A stretch of DNA of 64,000 bases from Natronococcus sp. A-GB1 (GTDB lineage: Archaea > Halobacteriota > Halobacteria > Halobacteriales > Natrialbaceae): the NCBI RefSeq assembly GCF_029688845.1, contig NZ_JARUKW010000002.1:1-64000 (forward strand), written 5' to 3'. Position 1 is the first letter of the stretch, and each line of letters opens with the position of its first letter. The translations under genes and the position numbers were made by a program. Below are positions 1 to 10,109 of the stretch, piece after piece. The notes below the pieces were generated by a model that ran no database searches, was not told the origin of the DNA, and saw only the letters and a list, made by a program, of their open reading frames with translations.

Positions 1-38
1 TAACAGTGCAAGCGATTCGGCGATAAGTTCGGAACCCA

Positions 39-815
39 TTGTCCTCCGAGAGTCCCCCGGTGAAGGTAAACCTGTCCCTCGCTCTGCCGACGATCCGACC
101 GGCCTATACGCCTCGAGCCCCGAACGAGCCCGTGCCAGCTTCGAACGACGAGACCGACTCCGGCGTCGCTCCGGAGCCGCCGTTTCCCGACTCGAGGAAC
201 GTCATCGAGCCCGACTGTCGGCGCTGTCCCGCCCTCGCCGAGAACCGAAACTGCATCTCGTGGGGAACCGGGCCGCTCGACGCCGACGTGCTCGTCGTCG
301 GCGAGGCGCCCGGCTCCGGGAACCCCGACGCCGACCGCTGGAAGGGGGGTAACTGGACGGGCAAGGCCTATACCTCCCGCCACTCTGGTCGACGGATCCG
401 GCGAATGCTCGAGCGGGTCGGCTACGACGAACGGTCGTACTACACGAACGCCGTGAAGTGTTTTCCGGCGAGCGAGGAGGATCCGACCAGCAACCGCGAA
501 CCGACCGACGAGGAGCGGGCGAACTGCCGGGCCCACCTGGTGACCGAGGTCGAGACCCTCGAGCCCAATGTCGTCCTCGCGACGGGCAAGCACGCGACGA
601 AATCCGTACTGGCGGCCGAGGACCGTGGGCTCGAGGGGTTCATCGACTCGGTCCTCGAGCCCGTGCGCTGTGAGACGCTCGATACCTGGCTCGTGCCGAT
701 TCTGCATCCCTCCTACCAGGACGTCTGGATCGTCCGCATGGGGTACGAACCCGAGGAGTACCTCGCCGAGATCGGCGCGACGCTCGACGAACTCGTCGAT
801 GGCACCGACGCCTAA
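39..815 (+). CDS. Uracil-DNA glycosylase superfamily protein (family 4/5-like)
   Basis: Likely removes uracil or a related damaged base from DNA in base-excision repair. Motif GEAPG (about residues 88-92) is the catalytic-pocket motif of family 4/5 enzymes, and a late HPS (223-225) matches their C-terminal loop. Cys60, Cys63, Cys141 and Cys163 have the CxxC ... C ... C spacing of the [4Fe-4S] cluster in this family. After GEAPG there is an unusual Trp/Gly/Lys-rich stretch (about 100-118) instead of the usual short loop, so the substrate may differ. The start is uncertain: TTG at 39 or GTG at 60 are both in frame after a stop at 24-26. The first 55 residues look disordered. Family assignment is firm, substrate is not. 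Confidence 0.85.
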   Translation: MSSESPPVKVNLSLALPTIRPAYTPRAPNEPVPASNDETDSGVAPEPPFPDSRNVIEPDCRRCPALAENRNCISWGTGPLDADVLVVGEAPGSGNPDADRWKGGNWTGKAYTSRHSGRRIRRMLERVGYDERSYYTNAVKCFPASEEDPTSNREPTDEERANCRAHLVTEVETLEPNVVLATGKHATKSVLAAEDRGLEGFIDSVLEPVRCETLDTWLVPILHPSYQDVWIVRMGYEPEEYLAEIGATLDELVDGTDA

Positions 816-850
816 GCCCTTCGCCAGCCCCGACGCCTAAGCCGTTCGCC
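805..850. repeat. Imperfect 21-bp tandem duplication spanning the glycosylase stop codon
   Basis: Bases 805-825 recur at 830-850 with one mismatch (20 of 21), period 25. The first copy carries the last codons and TAA stop of the glycosylase gene; the second lies in the spacer before the Rieske gene. It looks like a slippage or short-duplication scar. Confidence 0.75.
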
Positions 851-864
851 GCCCAACTCGAGGT

Positions 865-1302
865 ATGGCGGTTCGACACCGGCTGACGAGCGTCGAAACG
901 GTTCTCGAGGAGGGGTCCTGGCTGTTTACAGTCCGGGACGCTCGCGGCGACGAGGAGGAGGAGGTGATCCTCGTCCCCTGCGACGACGACGATCGCGGTC
1001 CCGTCGAGGCGTGGGTCAACCGGTGTACCCACGAGGAACAGCGGCTCCACCGCGAGGACGTCGGCGCCGTGATTCGCGACGGTGGGATCGTCTGTCCGAA
1101 ACACGGCTCGGTGTTCGAGAGCTGCTCGGGCTACTGCGACAACGGCGAGGCCGCGAACACGACGCTTGTCGACGTCGGGATCGAGGTCGAGGACGGGGAG
1201 GTGTACCTGACCGACGACGACGCCAGCTTCCTTCGGGAGGGTGGGGCGGGCAACGACGAGGACGAGGGCGGACCGAGTTCGACGTCTCACATCCAGTTCT
1301 GA
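865..1302 (+). CDS. Rieske-type [2Fe-2S] protein
   Basis: Small stand-alone Rieske protein, 145 residues. The two cluster motifs are visible as C54-T-H56 and C77-P-K-H80 followed by GSVF, giving the classic two-Cys, two-His ligand set. There is no signal peptide or membrane segment, so it resembles soluble Rieske ferredoxins or dioxygenase-type components rather than the bc1 subunit. The C-terminal 20 residues are acidic. It is followed in the same direction by the HIT gene after about 50 bp. Partner oxidoreductase is not visible in the window; physiological role is therefore unknown. Confidence 0.85.
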   Translation: MAVRHRLTSVETVLEEGSWLFTVRDARGDEEEEVILVPCDDDDRGPVEAWVNRCTHEEQRLHREDVGAVIRDGGIVCPKHGSVFESCSGYCDNGEAANTTLVDVGIEVEDGEVYLTDDDASFLREGGAGNDEDEGGPSSTSHIQF

Positions 1303-1352
1303 GCGCGGATCGCCGGGTAACCTTCTTACGGCGAGCCGACACACACTGGCGT

Positions 1353-1772
1353 ATGGGTACGATCTTCACGCAGATCGTCGAGGGAGAGATCCCGGCACGC
1401 ATCGTCTACGAGGACGAGACGACCGTCGCCTTCCTCGACGCCAACCCGCTGGCGCCGGGTCACACGCTGGTGATCCCGAAAGAGGAGTACGAGCGACTGA
1501 ACGACGTCCCCGACGACGTCGCGACGGAGCTCTACGCGACGATCCACAGACTGGTTCCTGCCGTCGAAGAAGCCGTCGACGCCGACGCCTCCACGGTCGC
1601 CTTTAACAACGGCGAGGAAGCCGGTCAGGAAGTTCCCCACGTCCACTGCCACATCGTTCCCCGGTTCGAGGGCGACGGCGGCGGCCCGATCCACGGTATC
1701 GCGGGCGAGGCGCCCGATATCGCCGACGACGAACTCGACGACATCGCCGACGAGATCGAGTCCCGAAGCTGA
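1353..1772 (+). CDS. HIT family nucleotide hydrolase/transferase
   Basis: 139-residue histidine-triad protein of the Hint/HIT type, cytosolic, expected to hydrolyse nucleoside phosphoramidates or related nucleotide derivatives. The triad reads H96-V-H98-C-H100 and the N-terminal FL.A.P..PGH motif (about 28-37) contacts the nucleotide in known members. Start chosen at ATG 1353 because the family begins with a short MxTIF-like segment; the open frame extends upstream through the Rieske gene without homology. The third residue between the histidines is Cys, common in archaeal members. Confidence 0.9.
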   Translation: MGTIFTQIVEGEIPARIVYEDETTVAFLDANPLAPGHTLVIPKEEYERLNDVPDDVATELYATIHRLVPAVEEAVDADASTVAFNNGEEAGQEVPHVHCHIVPRFEGDGGGPIHGIAGEAPDIADDELDDIADEIESRS

Positions 1773-1814
1773 GCCGGCCGTGACAGTTTTGATCCCCTCG
1801 CTCGAGGGTCGCAT

Positions 1815-2045
1815 ATGGGAGTTCCCGACGTCGGCGCTCGGCTGCGAGCCAATCCCGTCGCGGCGACGATCGAACTCGCGAGCGTCTGCGTCGCCGCGCT
1901 GTTGCTCGTCGGCACCGTCTCGCTGCTGCTGGGTGGGCTGCCGATCGTCGCCGAGTGGCCCTGGCTGCTGATTATCGGCGTCGGCGCCGCGTTCGTCCTC
2001 TTCTGGACGGTCCTCGTCCCGGCGTACGAGCGGACCCTACAGTAG
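1815..2045 (+). CDS. Small two-helix membrane protein, unknown function
   Basis: 76 residues with two hydrophobic segments (about 20-40 and 48-68) and a short soluble N-terminus. I do not recognise a named family. Its 3' end overlaps the convergent prepilin peptidase gene by 9 bp (2037-2045). It follows the HIT gene by about 40 bp in the same direction and could be co-transcribed. No catalytic motif is visible. Confidence 0.65.
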   Translation: MGVPDVGARLRANPVAATIELASVCVAALLLVGTVSLLLGGLPIVAEWPWLLIIGVGAAFVLFWTVLVPAYERTLQ

Positions 2046-3038
2046 GGGTCCCAGCAGTACGTCGCCGTAGGTGAGCGCGACGACGAGTCCGAGAAACAGC
2101 GGAACGAGGAAGGGCATTCCCGGCGAGATCCAGATCCGGTCGCGGGTCGCCAGCGTCTCGAGTCCCCCTCGAAGCTCCGCTGGCGACGTTCCGTACGCCG
2201 TGCCCTCGATATCCTCGAGAAACGCCTCGGCGCCCCAGGGGTCGTCGTACTCGCGTGATCGGTCGCCCCCGTCCCGAACCGGCTCCTCGAGAGCGGAACC
2301 CGCGTCGCCGACCGGTCCGTCGGCGACGGCGCCGTCGGTCGGCGGGTTCGGCTCGTCGGGGAGCGTCGCGGGATCCCGGAACCGATCGGGCTGCTCCCGA
2401 AGTCGTGCAAGCGTCAGGCCGCGCCACCGAAGGTACATCCGAAGGGCGTCGAGGTCGAGTCCGCCACCCCCGTCGTCGCCGGGCGCCGAGAGCAGTTTGC
2501 CGTGGGTCGTCGGTACCCGCTCCCAGGGGACGGGTCGGCCGACGAAGGCGAGGCGAGTGAGGCGACCGGCGGCGACGTTTCGGACCGCCAGGGCGAGCGG
2601 AATCGCGAGTGCGACGACGACGGCGTTAGTCAGGATGACGAACGAGAACGCACCGATCGGCGACGCCGCGACGGGGATCGTCCAGGAGCCGAGTACGTAC
2701 TGCGGCGTCGTCGGGAACAGCAAGGCGAGTACCAGCAGCGCCTTCCCGTCCGCGCCGCCGAAGGCACCGAACCACCAGCACAGGTACGCGAAGGGGACGA
2801 CGAAGCCGAGGCTGATCGCTGCGGGAACGAGAAACTCGGACTGCCAGACGGCGGGACCGGCCGCCCGGGCTACGAGGGCGTCCCACAGCAGGAGGACGCC
2901 ACCGAGCAGCGCGAGCGGGATCCAGAGCGAACTCGAGACCCGCCTGGTTCTGACGTCGCGAACGGCCGCCCAGCCGAAGACCGGAACGGCGAGGAGCCTG
3001 AACAGATCCGGAACCGTCGCGACGTCGATGGGTGTCAC
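2037..3038 (-). CDS. A24-family prepilin/preflagellin peptidase (PibD-like)
   Basis: Membrane aspartyl protease that would cleave class III signal peptides of archaeal pilins and archaellins at the cytoplasmic face. Two catalytic aspartates are recognisable: D28 in the first cytoplasmic loop (DVRTRR) and D97 in the GGADGK loop, the archaeal version of the GxGD motif. About six hydrophobic helices surround a long acidic cytoplasmic insertion (about residues 185-290), which makes this protein larger (333 residues) than minimal FlaK/PibD. Start is GTG at 3038. It stands alone, with the molybdate/tungstate chimera upstream on the same strand. Confidence 0.85.
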   Translation of the reverse strand: MTPIDVATVPDLFRLLAVPVFGWAAVRDVRTRRVSSSLWIPLALLGGVLLLWDALVARAAGPAVWQSEFLVPAAISLGFVVPFAYLCWWFGAFGGADGKALLVLALLFPTTPQYVLGSWTIPVAASPIGAFSFVILTNAVVVALAIPLALAVRNVAAGRLTRLAFVGRPVPWERVPTTHGKLLSAPGDDGGGGLDLDALRMYLRWRGLTLARLREQPDRFRDPATLPDEPNPPTDGAVADGPVGDAGSALEEPVRDGGDRSREYDDPWGAEAFLEDIEGTAYGTSPAELRGGLETLATRDRIWISPGMPFLVPLFLGLVVALTYGDVLLGPLL

Positions 3039-3065
3039 AACCGGGTACTCTCGAGCGCGTCGGCG

Positions 3066-3782
3066 TTATCTTTTCGGCCCGGTTTCGGTTGTTTCCTCTC
3101 GGACTCGGTCAGATAAGAAGTGGCCGGAACCGGTCGCTCCTACCGGACGGATCGACACGGGTCGCCACCGGAGAGCGTTGCTGTGGGACTCACCCCCCGT
3201 TTCGTTTGCAGCGACGAGGCGGTCCCGTTCGTTTTTGTCGGCGTTGAACACCGCGATCCGGTCCCGTGTGAGTTCGATCGCGACGCGCTCGCCCGCCGTC
3301 GGCGGGTCGTCGGTGACCTCGGCGACGAGTTCGCCACCGGTTTCGGTGCGAACGGTCACGTCGTACCGGCGACCGACGTCCGTGACGGTCGCGACCTCAC
3401 CAGAGATCGAAGGCGTCGTTTCACCGGTTCCGGCGTCTGCAGAGGGGGTGAGCAACAGATCCTCCGGACGGACGTGACACGTGACCGACGCTCCCGCGGG
3501 CGGCGAACGGGCGCTGCTCCGCAGCGTGATCTCCTGTCCGCCTAGCGTGACGGTCGGCGGCTCGCGAGCGACGACGGTCGCCGGAAGCCCGATTTCGTCC
3601 TCGAACGCCGGCCCGACGTGATCTTCGAAGGTGTGAGCGAGGCTGCCGGCCGCCAGGACGTTCACCGACGTCCCGTCGCTTCCGAGACAGCCCGCCGCGG
3701 TCGTACCGACGAGACTGCCCGTTGCGGCGAGAACCGATCGACGGCTCCGGAGACCGCTGCCGTTCCCCTCGTCTCGAGTCAT
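3066..3782 (-). pseudogene. Chimeric relic: tungstate/molybdate binding-protein N-terminus fused to ABC-ATPase TOBE C-terminus
   Basis: The frame is open for 238 residues but reads as parts of two proteins. Residues 1-65 form a Tat lipoprotein leader (RSRRSVL, lipobox Cys32) and the first strand of a WtpA/ModA-type binding protein (VNVLAAGSLAHTF). From about residue 72 the sequence matches the C-terminal TOBE region of a molybdate/tungstate ABC ATPase, with HVRPEDLLL at 103-111 and the ending IAVFN at 176-180. The rest of the binding protein, the permease and the ATPase core are absent, as expected from a deletion across a wtpABC-type operon with a junction near 3560-3600. A tail of about 58 residues follows TOBE. 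A TATA-like box lies near 3805-3814, so it may still be expressed. Non-functional as a transporter. Confidence 0.75.
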
Positions 3783-4125
3783 ATACCATACTCTGCGTGC
3801 GGCCAGTATGAAATCTCACACAGTTTCTTGCTGAGTAAGAGGAAACTGAAAGTGGTTACTACTCCGTCGGCGCCAGGGCTCGAGCAAGGAGAAGTGGCCA
3901 CACCGATCCTCGAGCTGTAGGATCGATGTTAGGAAGTGTTACCGTTGATTCCCGCTCGACGCAACTGGACGAACTCGCGCTGCGAGCTTCGGAGCGGCTG
4001 CTGGGTCCCGGAGCGGCCAGCGGGAGAAGCAAACGAAGGACCGATCAGTACGCGGGAGGAGCCGTCACAGAGCTTCGTCTGTCGGACCTGTAAATAAAAG
4101 CGAAATCGCGCGGCCTCGTGGCCGA
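3783..4125. other. Intergenic region, no gene seen
   Basis: 343 bp between the chimera and the ferredoxin gene. The part next to the chimera is relatively AT-rich and includes a TATA-like stretch (3805-3814 on the minus strand, about 25-30 bp before the chimera start). The remainder shows no convincing open frame or RNA gene. The short reverse frame running through it into the ferredoxin region is a shadow. Confidence 0.5.
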
Positions 4126-4515
4126 TTAAATGACGCGGTTCTGCAGGTAGTCGAGGTGTTTCGCGTTGTAGACGATCTGAACCTCGTCGGTTTCGGCGGA
4201 GCCGATACAGGTCAGACGGACGTTCTTGTCCTCGACCTCCTCGTCCGAGAGGATCTGCTGCATGTCCATGTCGATCTCGCCCTCGTAGACGATCGCTGCG
4301 CAGTTCGCACAGGCACCCGCACGGCAGGAGAAGGGCCAGTCGTAGCCCTGCGCCTCGGCGGCCTCGAGGATGTACTCGCCCTCGGCGACGTCGAGGGTTC
4401 CGTAGTCCTCCTCGTCGAGACCGGCGTCGGCGGCTTCGTCGAAGAGGTCGTCGTCGTCCATTTCCCAGCCCTGGTCGTCCAGCACTTCGTAGTTGAGGTA
4501 TTCTACCGTGGGCAT
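4126..4515 (-). CDS. Halophilic plant-type [2Fe-2S] ferredoxin
   Basis: 129-residue soluble electron carrier. Cysteines C64, C69, C72 and C103 give the C-X4-C-X2-C-X~30-C ligand pattern of plant-type ferredoxins. An N-terminal hyperacidic insertion (about residues 13-45) is the hallmark of haloarchaeal ferredoxins, which serve 2-oxoacid:ferredoxin oxidoreductases. Start set at ATG 4515, the usual [10 protein letters not shown] beginning; a TATA-like element at 4541-4549 lies 26-34 bp upstream, fitting a leaderless message. Single-gene unit, probably highly expressed. Confidence 0.95.
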
Positions 4516-4540
4516 CACACGACGATTCGAGTCCCGCCTT

Positions 4541-4549
4541 GGTATAGCT
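4541..4549 (-). promoter_or_regulatory. TATA-like box of the ferredoxin gene
   Basis: Reads AGCTATACC on the minus strand, 26-34 bp before the ferredoxin ATG at 4515, the spacing expected for a leaderless archaeal promoter. Confidence 0.5.
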
Positions 4550-4707
4550 TGCTGTTCCGTCTGCAAGCAAGGGGTGCCGAGCCGACCGAAGCGCAGAGTC
4601 GACGGGCGCCGGTCGGTCGTCGTGACACCCCCGTCTCCTGACGAAGTTCGAGAGAGGCGTCGTAGCGAGTAGCATCACTTATCCCGAATCATCACTTCGT
4701 ACCGTCC

Positions 4708-5919
4708 GTGATTGAGCCGCTCTTACTGATCGGCGTACTGGTCGCGGTCTTCGTGGGGTACAACATCGGTGGAGCCACGACCGGCGTCTCGTTCGGCCCG
4801 GCCGTGGGTGCCCAGGTCCTCTCGAAGCTCGGCGCCGCGGCGCTGATGTCGATCTTCTTCTTCATCGGTGGGTGGTTCATCGGGCCGGCCGTCGTCGAGA
4901 CGCTCGGCGAGGGGATCATCGAGGAGGAAGGCCTTCTGACCCTCGAGACGGGGATCGCCGTCCTCTTTTTCATCGGGCTGGCGCTGTTCCTCGGGAACCT
5001 CTTCGGCGTGCCGGCGTCGACATCGATGACGGCCGTCGGCGCGATCGCCGGCCTCGGGCTCGCGACCGGGACGCTCAACTGGGCGACGATGGGCGAAATC
5101 GTCTCCTGGTGGATCGTCGCACCGATCATCGCGTTCTGGATCAGCGGCGTCATCGGTCGGTACTTCTACACGCGGATAAACGAGTGGGTCGCGATCTCCC
5201 GCCGGGACACCTCGCTCTGGACCGTCGATCGATCCTCGACGATCCCGAAGGTCGGCGTCGCCGAGGGGACCGACAGACGCGAGATTACGGGCTCGCTGAT
5301 CGTCGTCGGGATCGGCTGTTACATGGCGTTCAGCTCCGGCGCCTCGAACGTCGCGAACGCCGTCGCCCCGCTGGTCGGCGCCGGAGCCCTCGAGTTCGAC
5401 GACGGGGTCCTCGCCACCTTCTCGAACATGGAGTGGGGCGTGATCATCGCGGGCATCGCCGTCACCATCGGCGCGTTCACCATCGCCCGGCGAACCCTCG
5501 AGACGATGGGCAACGACATCACGAACCTGCCGCTTACGGCCGCGGTCGTCGTGATGACGGTGTCGGCGACGATCGTCAGCTTGCTGTCGGCGATCGGCAT
5601 CCCCGTTCAGCTGGTGATCGTCGCGACGATGAGTATCGTCGGTCTGGGCTGGGGTCGGGCGACGCGAACGACGACCGTCTCTGACGCCGTTCGAGGCGAG
5701 GGCGACGCCACCGTCTCGGTCGGCGCGTTGACCGCCGAGGAAGAGGGCGAAGCGGCGCCGGCGATCGGCGAGGAACGCCGTGAGGACATCCCGAAGGCGT
5801 CGGATCTGTTCGACCCGTCGACGACGGCACGGGTCATCCTCATCCAGAACTTCGTCCCGGTGCTCGCGACGATCGGGGCCTTCCTCACCTTCCGGTTCGT
5901 TCCGATCTTCGGATTCTGA
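4708..5919 (+). CDS. Inorganic phosphate transporter, Pit family (copy 1)
   Basis: 403-residue polytopic permease, expected to take up phosphate (or metal phosphate) with an ion. Two homologous halves are visible: GYNIGGATTGVSFGPAVGA near residue 16 and the related FSSGASNVANAVAPLVGAG near 208, matching the PitA/PHO4 signature repeats. Ten or more hydrophobic helices; an acidic soluble loop at about 330-365 (AEEEGEAAPAIGEE) precedes the last helices. Start is GTG 4708 with a TATA-like ACTTATCC at 4677-4684. It is closely similar to the Pit gene at 7080-8261. The repeat-tail membrane protein follows in the same direction. Confidence 0.9.
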   Translation: MIEPLLLIGVLVAVFVGYNIGGATTGVSFGPAVGAQVLSKLGAAALMSIFFFIGGWFIGPAVVETLGEGIIEEEGLLTLETGIAVLFFIGLALFLGNLFGVPASTSMTAVGAIAGLGLATGTLNWATMGEIVSWWIVAPIIAFWISGVIGRYFYTRINEWVAISRRDTSLWTVDRSSTIPKVGVAEGTDRREITGSLIVVGIGCYMAFSSGASNVANAVAPLVGAGALEFDDGVLATFSNMEWGVIIAGIAVTIGAFTIARRTLETMGNDITNLPLTAAVVVMTVSATIVSLLSAIGIPVQLVIVATMSIVGLGWGRATRTTTVSDAVRGEGDATVSVGALTAEEEGEAAPAIGEERREDIPKASDLFDPSTTARVILIQNFVPVLATIGAFLTFRFVPIFGF

Positions 5920-6024
5920 CGGCGAGACTTCCCAACAGACTTGGCCGTCCTCGTCGTTGAACGGAGTGATGCACTCGTCTGGAACGATACCGCGAGACGC
6001 AGTCAAACGGAGGTCGACGCGTTC

Positions 6025-6516
6025 GTGGCGCTGAGCCCGGTTCGCGTCGACGCCGCCGTCGACCTCGCGTACGGCGCGTTGATTATTCTCTCGATCGTCC
6101 TGATCGCGACGCTCGAGTTCGGCATCGGGATCGCGTTCGGAGTCGGTGTCTTCTCCGCATACGTCCTCCACGTCGTCTGGAAGATGGCCCGGTTCGATCC
6201 CGAGTGGATGACCCAGGCCGTCGAAGAGACGGTCGAAGAGGCAGTCGAGGAGTCGGTCGGCGAAACCGTCGGCAAACAGGTCGAAGAAACCGTCGAGGGC
6301 TCGGTCGGCGAAACCGTCGAAGAGGCCGTCGAACGACAGGTCGAGGAGACTGTCGGCGAGACCGTCGAGCGGACGGTCGGCGAAACCGTCGGCAAGCAGG
6401 TCGAGGAGGTACAGGCTCAGGTCGAGGCCGTCGACGAACGAATCGATCGGCGGCCGCGAGCCGAGGAGGTCGAGGAGATCGTCGAGGAGTCCGTCGAGGA
6501 CGACGCGAGCGAGTAG
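6025..6516 (+). CDS. Membrane-anchored protein with VEETV-type repeat tail
   Basis: Two hydrophobic helices (about residues 10-30 and 33-53) are followed by a highly repetitive acidic tail at residues 65-129, built from four-residue steps of the form V-E-x-(T/S/A/Q) with G/K variants such as VGETVGKQ. After the repeat comes a short charged C-terminus. The tail is expected to be helical or coiled-coil like. Start GTG 6025 places the first helix near the N-terminus; TTG 5941 would add 28 residues. It follows Pit copy 1 by about 100 bp on the same strand and may be co-transcribed. I do not recognise a family and infer no function. Confidence 0.65.
   Translation: MALSPVRVDAAVDLAYGALIILSIVLIATLEFGIGIAFGVGVFSAYVLHVVWKMARFDPEWMTQAVEETVEEAVEESVGETVGKQVEETVEGSVGETVEEAVERQVEETVGETVERTVGETVGKQVEEVQAQVEAVDERIDRRPRAEEVEEIVEESVEDDASE
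6217..6411 (+). repeat. Degenerate tandem repeat coding for the VEETV tail
   Basis: About 195 bp of 12-bp units (GTCGAA/GAG-GAG/GAC-type steps encoding V-E-E-T, V-G-E-T, V-G-K-Q and similar). Longer blocks repeat, for example the segment encoding GETVGKQVEE occurs at residues 79-88 and 119-128. Copy number could vary between strains. Confidence 0.7.
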
Positions 6517-6613
6517 CCGGGGACGTCCGCCTCATACGGATGGCTGTAACGATTTCCCGGCGCAACCGCCGCACGGGTCCGGTTACGCCGGTACTGACGT
6601 ACAGTAACCCGTA

Positions 6614-7042
6614 TCAGCGAACGATCGTCACCGGCACGGGCGAGCGCTTCGAGATCGTCTCGGCGACGTTTCCCACGAGGAAGCGGCGGGACGCCCGACC
6701 TCGGTCCGCCCCGTGGCTCCCCACGACGATCGTGTCGTACTCCTCCGCGCGATCGAGGACGTTCCGTGCGGGATGGCCGACGCCGACGACGGTGTCGATC
6801 TCTCGGCCCCGTTCGCTCGCGATCTCGCGGGCGCGTTCGAACACCGGTTCAGCGCGTCTGGCAGCCGCTTCGTCGAGATCGTCCTCAAGCGTGAGGCTGA
6901 CAGCGTCGCCCATCATCATCGACGGAACGCCGACGACGTGCAAAACGGTAATGTCCGTGTCCGGAAAGTTATCGAGGGCGTAGGCGAGGGCGTGTCCAGC
7001 CTGATCGGAGTCGTCCATCGGGACCAGGATTCGCGAGAGCAT
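6614..7042 (-). CDS. Universal stress protein (UspA family)
   Basis: 142-residue single-domain USP. It opens with the first strand SRILVPMDDSDQA and closes with the ATP-binding signature GSHGADRGRASRRFLVGNVA, the G-x2-G-x9-G motif, so it is likely an ATP-binding Usp. Start chosen at ATG 7042, directly before the first strand; an upstream ATG at 7066 adds eight unrelated residues. It lies 37 bp downstream of Pit copy 2 on the same strand and probably forms an operon with it, a pairing also common for other haloarchaeal transporters. Confidence 0.9.
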   Translation of the reverse strand: MLSRILVPMDDSDQAGHALAYALDNFPDTDITVLHVVGVPSMMMGDAVSLTLEDDLDEAAARRAEPVFERAREIASERGREIDTVVGVGHPARNVLDRAEEYDTIVVGSHGADRGRASRRFLVGNVAETISKRSPVPVTIVR

Positions 7043-7079
7043 GCGCCGACGTACGCGACCCAGCATCGTAATACCACGG

Positions 7080-8261
7080 TCAGACGACCCCCGGAACGAG
7101 CGTGAAGAAGCCGTACGCCAGGAGCGTCGACATCGACGGTCCGATGATCCACATCGAGACGTACTTGATGACGGCGCGTGGGTTGAATAGATCGCTCCCG
7201 TGGAGCACTTCTTCGGTCTCCGCTTCGCCGATGGCGGGCGCCGGTTTCCCTTCCTTTTCCTCGGCGACGATCACGCCCAGTTCGATATCGCGCTCTCGGG
7301 CCTCGTTGTCGCGGGTGACCGCCTCGCGGAAGGTGATCGGTCGGGTCGCTCGGCCCCAGCCGATTCCGACGATCGTCATCACCGTCGCCATCACGAGGCT
7401 GATCGGAATGCCGATGTACGAGAGCGCGGTCGTGATCGTCGACGCCGTTACCATGACGAACAGCGCCGCGAGCAGCGGAATGTCGCTCAGCTCGCCGCCG
7501 ACCGAGTCCATCGTCCGGCGGGCGATGGTGAACCCGCCGAGGCCGATAGCGAGGGTCGCGATAATGACTGCGGTGTTTACCTCCAGTCCCGCCTCGCCGA
7601 CCAGCGGCGCGGCGGCGTTCGGAACGTTGCTCGCGCCGGCGCTGAACGCCATATAACAGCCGATGGCGAGGACAACAGCGGTGGTACCGACCTCCGACCA
7701 GGTCGTGTTCGGGCCGAGTGCCGGTTTCGGAACCGTCCCGCCACGATCGAGGGTTAGCAACGGTCCATCTGTCTTTTCGATCTCCACCCGCCGGTTTATT
7801 TCCGGGTAGACGTACCGACCGATGATGCCGCCGATCCAGAAGCCAATGATCGGCGTCACGACCCACCACGAGATGATCTCGGCGATCGTCACGTAGTTGA
7901 GCGTCCCGGTCGCGAGCCCGAGGCCGGCGATCGCGCCGACCGTCGTCATCGACGTCGGCACGGGGACGCCGAAGAGGTTGGCGACGAGGATTCCCAACCC
8001 GATGAAAAAGAGGACGGCGACCCCCGACGCCAGCGTGAGTTCGGTGGTGATGATCCCCTCGCTGAGCGTCTCCATTACGTTCTGACCGACGGTGATCCCG
8101 CCGAGGAAGACGAAGACGGTCATGATCCCCGCAGCGGTCGTCTTCTTTACGATCCCGGCGCCGACCGACGGTCCCCACGTGATCCCGGTCGAGGAGCCGC
8201 CAATGTTAAAGCCGACAAAAATCGAAGCAATCACCCCGATCAGCAGAAGAGTTTCGACCAT
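7080..8261 (-). CDS. Inorganic phosphate transporter, Pit family (copy 2)
   Basis: 393-residue permease closely resembling copy 1. The two Pit repeats are GFNIGGSSTGITWGPSVGA near residue 22 and FSAGASNVPNAAAPLVGEA near 207, and the acidic loop AEEKEGKPAPAIGEAE recurs near 340. It is transcribed convergently to copy 1 and upstream of the Usp gene, so the two permease units face each other. Its start at 8261 touches the end of a truncated SLC13 gene, whose artificial tail covers the Pit promoter. Local duplication followed by inversion is a plausible history. Confidence 0.9.
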   Translation of the reverse strand: MVETLLLIGVIASIFVGFNIGGSSTGITWGPSVGAGIVKKTTAAGIMTVFVFLGGITVGQNVMETLSEGIITTELTLASGVAVLFFIGLGILVANLFGVPVPTSMTTVGAIAGLGLATGTLNYVTIAEIISWWVVTPIIGFWIGGIIGRYVYPEINRRVEIEKTDGPLLTLDRGGTVPKPALGPNTTWSEVGTTAVVLAIGCYMAFSAGASNVPNAAAPLVGEAGLEVNTAVIIATLAIGLGGFTIARRTMDSVGGELSDIPLLAALFVMVTASTITTALSYIGIPISLVMATVMTIVGIGWGRATRPITFREAVTRDNEARERDIELGVIVAEEKEGKPAPAIGEAETEEVLHGSDLFNPRAVIKYVSMWIIGPSMSTLLAYGFFTLVPGVV

Positions 8262-8749
8262 TAGCGAATAATCCGAGTGTCGTCATAAAATAACCACCGA
8301 ACCCTCTCTGGAGGGTATAGACATAATTGGGGTACCATCCGTATCTGAGCCCGCTCATCGCCTCCGATCTGCGGACTCAGAAAGCCCGAGGCAGGGCTCG
8401 TCGCGAACAGCTGTTTGTGGATGCTGTCGCCCGCGTAGGCGGCCATCCGCCAGCCGAGCTCCTGGACGAGTCCCGTGCGGGCGACCCCGCCGCTCAGGAT
8501 CAACATCGCGAGCACCGTGATCGTCGCGTCGTTCGAAAAGCCCGAGACGCCGGTGCTCGGATCGACCCCGGTCCAGGGCTCTAAGACGACCAGCACGACG
8601 ATGAGCAAGATTGCGGTGACCTCGATCGGCAGCCGCTCGGTGAGAAAAAGAACGAGCGCGAGGGCGACGACGCCGAGCACGACGAGGATGTCCGTCGTCA
8701 GCTCCGGCTGGGTCGTCACGTCCTGGGCGAGCACCAGGGGCTCCGGCAT
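8261..8749 (-). pseudogene. Truncated SLC13-family (anion:Na+ symporter-like) permease fragment
   Basis: Residues 1-115 match the N-terminus of haloarchaeal SLC13/TrkA-C permeases: helix 1 (about 20-36), TERLPIEVTAILLIVVLV, EPWTG, and ATITVLAMLILSGGVARTG. Full proteins of this type are about 600 residues; here homology ends at HKQLFAT and the remaining 45 residues are a meaningless tail translated through the promoter of Pit copy 2. The first two or three helices alone cannot transport. Most likely a deletion remnant created when the neighbouring Pit gene arrived or rearranged. Confidence 0.7.
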
Positions 8750-8865
8750 ACTGCGTTCTCACTCCCACTCCATAGGTAACAGTTCCGACGGACGCCGGAC
8801 GGTCGGCGTTCGATGGCGGTCGCCGAAACCGTCGCCTTTACTCGCCTCGGCCGCCGATCTCGAGT

Positions 8866-9594
8866 ATGCAATCAAACGGGTTCGAGGTGATCCCCGCGGT
8901 CGACGTCCAGGACGGCGAGGTCGTCCAGCTGGTCCAGGGCGAGCGCGGCACCGAGAAGACGTACGGTGACCCCGTCGAGGCCGCCGAGCGCTGGATCGAC
9001 GCCGGCGCCGAGACGCTCCACCTCGTCGACCTCGGCGGCGCCTTCGAAGGCGAGCGGGCCAACGCCGACGCGATCGACGCGGTGATCGACGCCGTCGACG
9101 TCCCCACGCAGCTAGGCGGGGGCATTCGGACTGCCGACGACGCCGTCGACCTGCTCGAGCGCGGCGTCGATCGGGTCATCCTCGGAACGGCGGCCGTCGA
9201 GAACCCGGATATCGTCGCCGAGATCAGCGAGGAGCATCCCGACAGCGTGGTCGTCAGCCTCGACGCGAAAGACGGCGAGGTCGTCGTCGAGGGCTGGACC
9301 CAGGGCGCCGGCGTGACACCCGTCGAGGCCGCCGAACGGTACGCAGAACTCGGTGCGGCCGCGATTCTCTTTACGAACGTCGACGTCGAGGGTCAGCTCG
9401 AGGGCGTCGCCACCGACCCCGTCCGAGAGCTCGTCGAGGCGACTGATATTCCGGTGATCGCAAGCGGCGGGGTCGCGACCCTCGAGGACATACGGGCGCT
9501 CGAGGAGACCGGTGCGGCCGCGGTCGTCGTCGGCAGTGCGCTGTACGAGGGCAACTTCACGCTCGAGGAGGCGCAAGCCGCGGTCGACGACTGA
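8866..9594 (+). CDS. hisA: HisA, ProFAR isomerase
   Basis: 242-residue (beta-alpha)8 barrel catalysing the Amadori isomerisation of ProFAR to PRFAR in histidine synthesis. The first catalytic Asp is D13 in IPAVDVQDGEVV, and the second lies in SLDAKDGEVVVEGW. Phosphate-binding glycines are in GGGIRTADD and ASGGVATLEDI. Length is normal. It is not next to other his genes except hisB 3.4 kb downstream, which fits the scattered his genes of haloarchaea. Confidence 0.95.
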   Translation: MQSNGFEVIPAVDVQDGEVVQLVQGERGTEKTYGDPVEAAERWIDAGAETLHLVDLGGAFEGERANADAIDAVIDAVDVPTQLGGGIRTADDAVDLLERGVDRVILGTAAVENPDIVAEISEEHPDSVVVSLDAKDGEVVVEGWTQGAGVTPVEAAERYAELGAAAILFTNVDVEGQLEGVATDPVRELVEATDIPVIASGGVATLEDIRALEETGAAAVVVGSALYEGNFTLEEAQAAVDD

Positions 9595-9658
9595 GACGGA
9601 CCGCTGTACGTCAGTGGCGGCCAAGCCACAGACGGATCGTGGTTTCTGAACACGGAAA

Positions 9659-9958
9659 CTACGTCTCACCCAGGCGCTCCCCGCAGAATCGACACTGCTC
9701 CAGGGTGGCGACCTCCTTTGATCGACAGTTCGGACACTCGAGGAGTTCCGGTGTCTGAACACCGGTTTCGCTCGGTGCTGCCGCCGTTCGATCTCGTCCG
9801 ACGTTCACGTAAAGCAATATTCCGGCGATACCGCCGAAGAACACCGTGAGCCCCCAGAGGAGCGGATCGTGTGAGCTGTGATCTCTCGCGTCGAGAGCTG
9901 CCCAGACGCTGACGAACAGCCACAGAACTGCGGCCGTCACTATGAGAGAGACTGGCAT
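9659..9958 (-). CDS. Membrane protein with C-terminal zinc ribbon
   Basis: 99 residues: helix at about 3-22, a second at about 33-52, then a soluble tail with two CxxC knuckles (CPNC and CRFC) that should bind one zinc ion. Proteins with this two-helix plus zinc-ribbon plan are common small membrane proteins with no established function. Start set at ATG 9958; longer in-frame starts at 10012 and 10066 add residues without homology. Upstream sequence is AT-rich (9960-9990), consistent with a promoter immediately before this start. Confidence 0.65.
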   Translation of the reverse strand: MPVSLIVTAAVLWLFVSVWAALDARDHSSHDPLLWGLTVFFGGIAGILLYVNVGRDRTAAAPSETGVQTPELLECPNCRSKEVATLEQCRFCGERLGET

Positions 9959-10109
9959 GAATTTTTGTGTTGTTTGATTGACAATAAATGTTTCGAACAG
10001 TCGAACACCCATTCGGCGGCGAACGGACGAGGTGTGAGCGGGACACACGCCAGCACGAACTTCCACCGAGTGTGGCCCCAGAGTGGCCGCACGCAGCGCA
10101 AAAGGTCGG

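Follow-up and report, generated by a model that had tools for sequence, protein, structure and literature searches.

A probable deletion-fusion remnant of a WtpABC-like molybdate/tungstate importer operon in Natronococcus sp. A-GB1

The analysed stretch of DNA, referred to here as the window, comprises the first 64,000 nucleotides of contig NZ_JARUKW010000002.1 of Natronococcus sp. A-GB1. It carries a 238-residue open reading frame (ORF) with an ATG start, in which the beginning of a substrate-binding protein gene is joined in frame to the end of an ABC-ATPase gene. The coordinates of this fusion and of the associated features are collected in Table 1. The stretch of Natronococcus amylolyticus DSM 10524 that carries the corresponding intact genes (entered as G087 in the protein search and, by coordinates, the same contig stretch as locus L031) matches fusion residues 1–66 (94% identity) and 65–198 (81%) at two places on the same strand, approximately 2.3 kb apart. 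The initial annotation, made from the sequence, had taken residues 1–65 for the start of a WtpA-type protein, in agreement with the 94% identity to the wtpA start of this relative. Of the 316 residues of the binding protein, these 65 are left, and both a twin-arginine motif (RRSVLAA) and a lipobox-like motif (TAAGC) were spotted by eye at the N-terminus.

Table 1. Coordinates of the fusion, its upstream region and the intact operon of N. amylolyticus. Positions refer to the window unless L031 is given.
Feature	Position	Strand	Basis or remark
Fusion ORF, wtpA + wtpC deletion-fusion remnant (probable)	3066..3782	-	ORF list, family search; reads from 3782 down to 3066
WtpA-derived part, fusion residues 1–65, start of binding protein	3588..3782	-	94% identity with G087 over residues 1–66
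WtpC-derived part, fusion residues 66–197 = WtpC 239–370 (C-terminal OB/TOBE region)	3192..3587	-	Pfam, alignment
41-residue tail and new stop, once non-coding DNA 3' of wtpC	3066..3191	-	Alignment
Deletion breakpoint; L031, L032 and L033 each have 2281 bp more here	3588..3589	-	Changeover from A-side to C-side
1-bp loss removing the wtpC stop codon (approximate site)	3192..3193	-	Base and stop present in L031 and L032
TATA-like box TTTCATAC	3806..3813	-	~28 bp upstream of ATG; read by eye
Inverted repeat GTTTC-N14-GAAAC, upstream of the fusion	3823..3846		Alignment, motif search
wtpA of L031	3528-4478		Consecutive with wtpB and wtpC
wtpB of L031	4475-5293		Consecutive
wtpC of L031	5290-6402		Consecutive

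For the second part of the protein, a WtpC C-terminal origin had been assigned to residues 72–180. The origin is confirmed, and the extent is larger, since the segment comprises the whole region behind the ATPase domain. The Pfam profile TOBE_2 matches fusion residues 104–179 (E 7.4e-10; 39.3 bits against a curated cut-off of 21) and is covered from position 3 to 76 of its 76 positions. No Pfam match to ABC_tran was found in the fusion ORF, a domain that the WtpC-like protein of N. amylolyticus does match. The first 65 codons of wtpA and the last 132 of wtpC are the sole coding sequence of the operon left in the window. The frame had been claimed to have stayed open, and indeed a single ORF spans the junction, its last 41 residues being encoded by former non-coding DNA. 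A predicted structure of the fusion, computed with seven sequences, is poor (mean pLDDT 49.5, with residues 1–63 and 183–238 below 50), and displays strands at residues 64–180, as expected of an OB/TOBE region.

The upstream region is kept with respect to the relatives, consistent with the earlier statement that a promoter-like box remains. The letters of the TATA-like box are identical in L032 and in N. amylolyticus, and read TTTCATAT in L033; a sigma-70 promoter scan is unsuited to archaea. The outer arms of the inverted repeat are exact in L031 and L032 and imperfect in L033, and a zero-mismatch search of the genome gave a single occurrence of its inner pattern. The repeat is a possible operator. 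By eye, no inverted repeat common to this region and the region upstream of the Tup-like operon described below was seen.

Several other loci in the surroundings were recorded. A 162-residue ORF (window 8261-8749, minus strand) matches the first 92 of 336 CitMHS positions and ends where a PHO4-like gene (7080-8261) begins; it is probably another truncated transporter gene, lying ~4.5 kb from the fusion. A 191-residue ORF (5941-6516, plus strand) begins with a hydrophobic segment followed by numerous VEETVGETVEE-like repeats and has no Pfam match. An 882-residue MEDS/histidine-kinase gene at 8310-10958 of L031 is missing from the window, where its two flanks lie next to each other near 1304. 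L032 and L033 align without interruption here, as the window does, so this gene is probably an insertion in L031. There was no Rfam match in window 1-10000, and a plasmid search returned no match.

At the syntenic place, N. amylolyticus carries an intact wtpA-wtpB-wtpC-like operon, whose order A, B, C agrees with the earlier proposal that the parts of the fusion correspond to the two ends of such an operon. In NCBIfam searches, its binding protein is WtpA-like (134 bits, below the cut-off of 355), its permease matches Mo_ABC_porter (236 bits, above the cut-off of 210.3), and its ATPase matches WtpC among many ATPase models (239 bits, below the cut-off of 440). All three proteins fall under the NCBI equivalog cut-offs for Wtp, and WtpABC-like is accordingly the right name for the operon, its ligand being putative. 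A PDB search with the WtpC-like protein confirmed ATPase family membership and nothing further. An orthologue of the permease is present in six of eight congeners (68–100% identity), and none was found in Natronococcus sp. A-GB1 itself or in G093 and G094 among the genus genomes searched.

At the nucleotide level, L031 and the window align on either side of the gap (95.2% identity across 3732 bases and 93.8% across 2290). Alignment to the intact operons, as recommended in the initial annotation, placed the junction at window 3588/3589. The same best breakpoint and the same loss of 2281 bp were obtained against each of the three intact relatives, L031, L032 and L033, with an ambiguity of one base. 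This result, together with the synteny of L031, agrees with the single deletion that had been proposed. The deleted DNA contains the remainder of wtpA, the complete wtpB and wtpC codons 1–238, and the wtpC frame continues behind wtpA because 2281 bp is the right length. The junction has a microhomology of 1 bp and no long repeat, and two bases near it differ in the window from all three relatives. The pattern of A-side and C-side matches is far beyond chance. At the other end of the remnant, wtpC terminates in a TGA at the same place in L031 and L032, whereas the window is one base short and reads on for 41 residues; among these three, the base is lost in the window only (L033, with no comparable stop at that place, was left out of the comparison). 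The lesion sits within a run of six G, and a sequencing error is therefore possible.

The fused architecture was found in none of 124 other genomes of the family, and none was seen among 391 other genomes of a sample of the order, which are partly the same genomes. A few rows of the family search extend slightly past residue 66, the furthest covering residues 4–91 and 4–87. In the order sample, two rows cross residue 66, namely G226 (residues 43–183, in a 663-residue ORF) and G280 (residues 11–159, in a 343-residue ORF); since each is accompanied by another match at a distance of ~2 to 2.7 kb, the two were interpreted as intact operons whose alignments run on too far. With both halves seen in one ORF in no other genome searched, the idea of a fused protein family was rejected, and the reading as a single deletion stands. 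In the WtpC part, polarised by L032, the synonymous/non-synonymous counts are 9/12 on the window branch and 8/11 on the L031 branch; with L033 added, they are 5/7 and 4/7. The WtpA part has too few changes for a rate comparison. The comparison shows neither decay of the fusion nor selection on it. No paper on this fusion was found in the literature, judged by title.

The assembly is 99.96% complete and is a draft of 57 contigs. The missing middle of the operon was not found elsewhere in it at high identity, the other rows (66–88%) being short or ATPase-like. An intact second copy, for which a search had been suggested, was rejected: genome-wide searches for wtpA, wtpB and wtpC returned no other orthologue. 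For WtpA, the next match has an E value of 8e-4; for WtpB, the best match shows 34% identity (E 1.7e-20) and lies in a 557-residue ORF. Nothing in the genome scored over the cut-off of TIGR01581.

A search of the genome with PF13531 revealed four other binding proteins, one of which was identified as Tup-like. It belongs to a TupABC-like operon of three genes on contig C34, which encode a binding protein, a permease and an ATPase. The binding protein is a sub-threshold match to TupA (190 bits, cut-off 400); the permease is over the cut-off of the ABC_perm1 subfamily and gives a sub-threshold match to TupB as well (133 bits, cut-off 320). A TupA orthologue is present in eight of nine genus genomes, including that of Natronococcus sp. 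A-GB1, with 61–93% identity in seven of the eight congeners; the exception is G091, a 96% complete genome. The genome also contains six genes of the AOR family, implying that tungsten is probably still used. Given the persistence of the TupABC-like transporter together with these six genes, loss of the operon probably removed a redundant route for tungsten. According to a survey (PMC6147048), 153 of 249 molybdenum-using archaea have WtpABC and 124 have TupABC, and many organisms possess two or more such systems.

The fusion is very probably a deletion-fusion pseudogene, the scar of a molybdate/tungstate ABC importer with its promoter region still attached. In this reading the ancestral locus was wtpA-wtpB-wtpC, like that of N. 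amylolyticus, and, as the comparison shows, one deletion of 2281 bp joined wtpA codon 65 to wtpC codon 239, with the frame kept by luck (1 in 3). This cost WtpA its ligand-binding body and WtpC its entire ATPase domain, and took out WtpB completely; with these parts missing, the transporter is presumably dead. At some time, a base was also lost at the former stop codon, which extended the frame by 41 residues in this assembly. The presence of a second, TupABC-like tungstate importer is the probable reason why the loss of the operon was tolerated. Transcription may still start from the retained promoter region, although no function is expected of the product. Against a pseudogene, the reading frame is uninterrupted in both halves, the upstream region has been conserved, and the WtpC part has evolved no faster on the window branch than on the intact L031 branch, so that decay after the deletion is not visible; moreover, the judgement comes from the contigs of a draft assembly.

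The draft state of the genome and the position of the stop lesion, in a homopolymer of a kind where sequencing indels occur, would also suit an assembly artefact, in which the organism retains the operon and 2.3 kb were dropped by the assembler. We consider this very improbable, because leftovers of wtpB and wtpC are absent from all contigs, the junction offers no long repeat, the substitutions beside it are absent from three relatives, and the flanks are syntenic. Alternatively, the fusion could be a newly born, expressed protein in which an exported, lipid-anchored OB/TOBE domain, with expression driven by the former wtp promoter, captures extracellular molybdate or tungstate and holds it at the cell surface. 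The retained signal and lipobox-like start, the complete TOBE_2 match, the upstream inverted repeat and TATA-like box, and the strands predicted over the OB/TOBE part are in line with such a chimera. It is nevertheless very improbable: the architecture occurs in one genome only, the predicted model is poor, and the lost stop with its added tail speaks mildly against it. In MalK/ModC-type ATPases, furthermore, the C-terminal region normally acts on the cytoplasmic ATPase dimer.

Read as a pseudogene, the locus represents one lineage that loses a Wtp-like importer and retains a Tup-like one along with its AOR-family genes, and so offers an easy test case for transporter redundancy in haloarchaea. 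The fusion protein itself is most likely inconsequential, and automatic annotation should not call it part of a transporter.

In comparison with known systems, the operon of N. amylolyticus resembles the WtpABC tungstate/molybdate ABC transporter in gene order and in its WtpA-, Mo_ABC_porter/WtpB- and WtpC-like matches, whereas the window lacks a complete binding protein, a permease and an ABC ATPase domain. The fusion shares with the TOBE_2/MalK-type C-terminal regulatory region the match over residues 104–179, but has a secretion-signal-like start in front of it and no ATPase domain. Deletion-fusion pseudogenes are gene remnants of operon deletions. The locus is like these in that it involves two genes of an operon and one deletion, with a related transporter elsewhere and a second lesion, and differs from them in that the frame is open across the junction.
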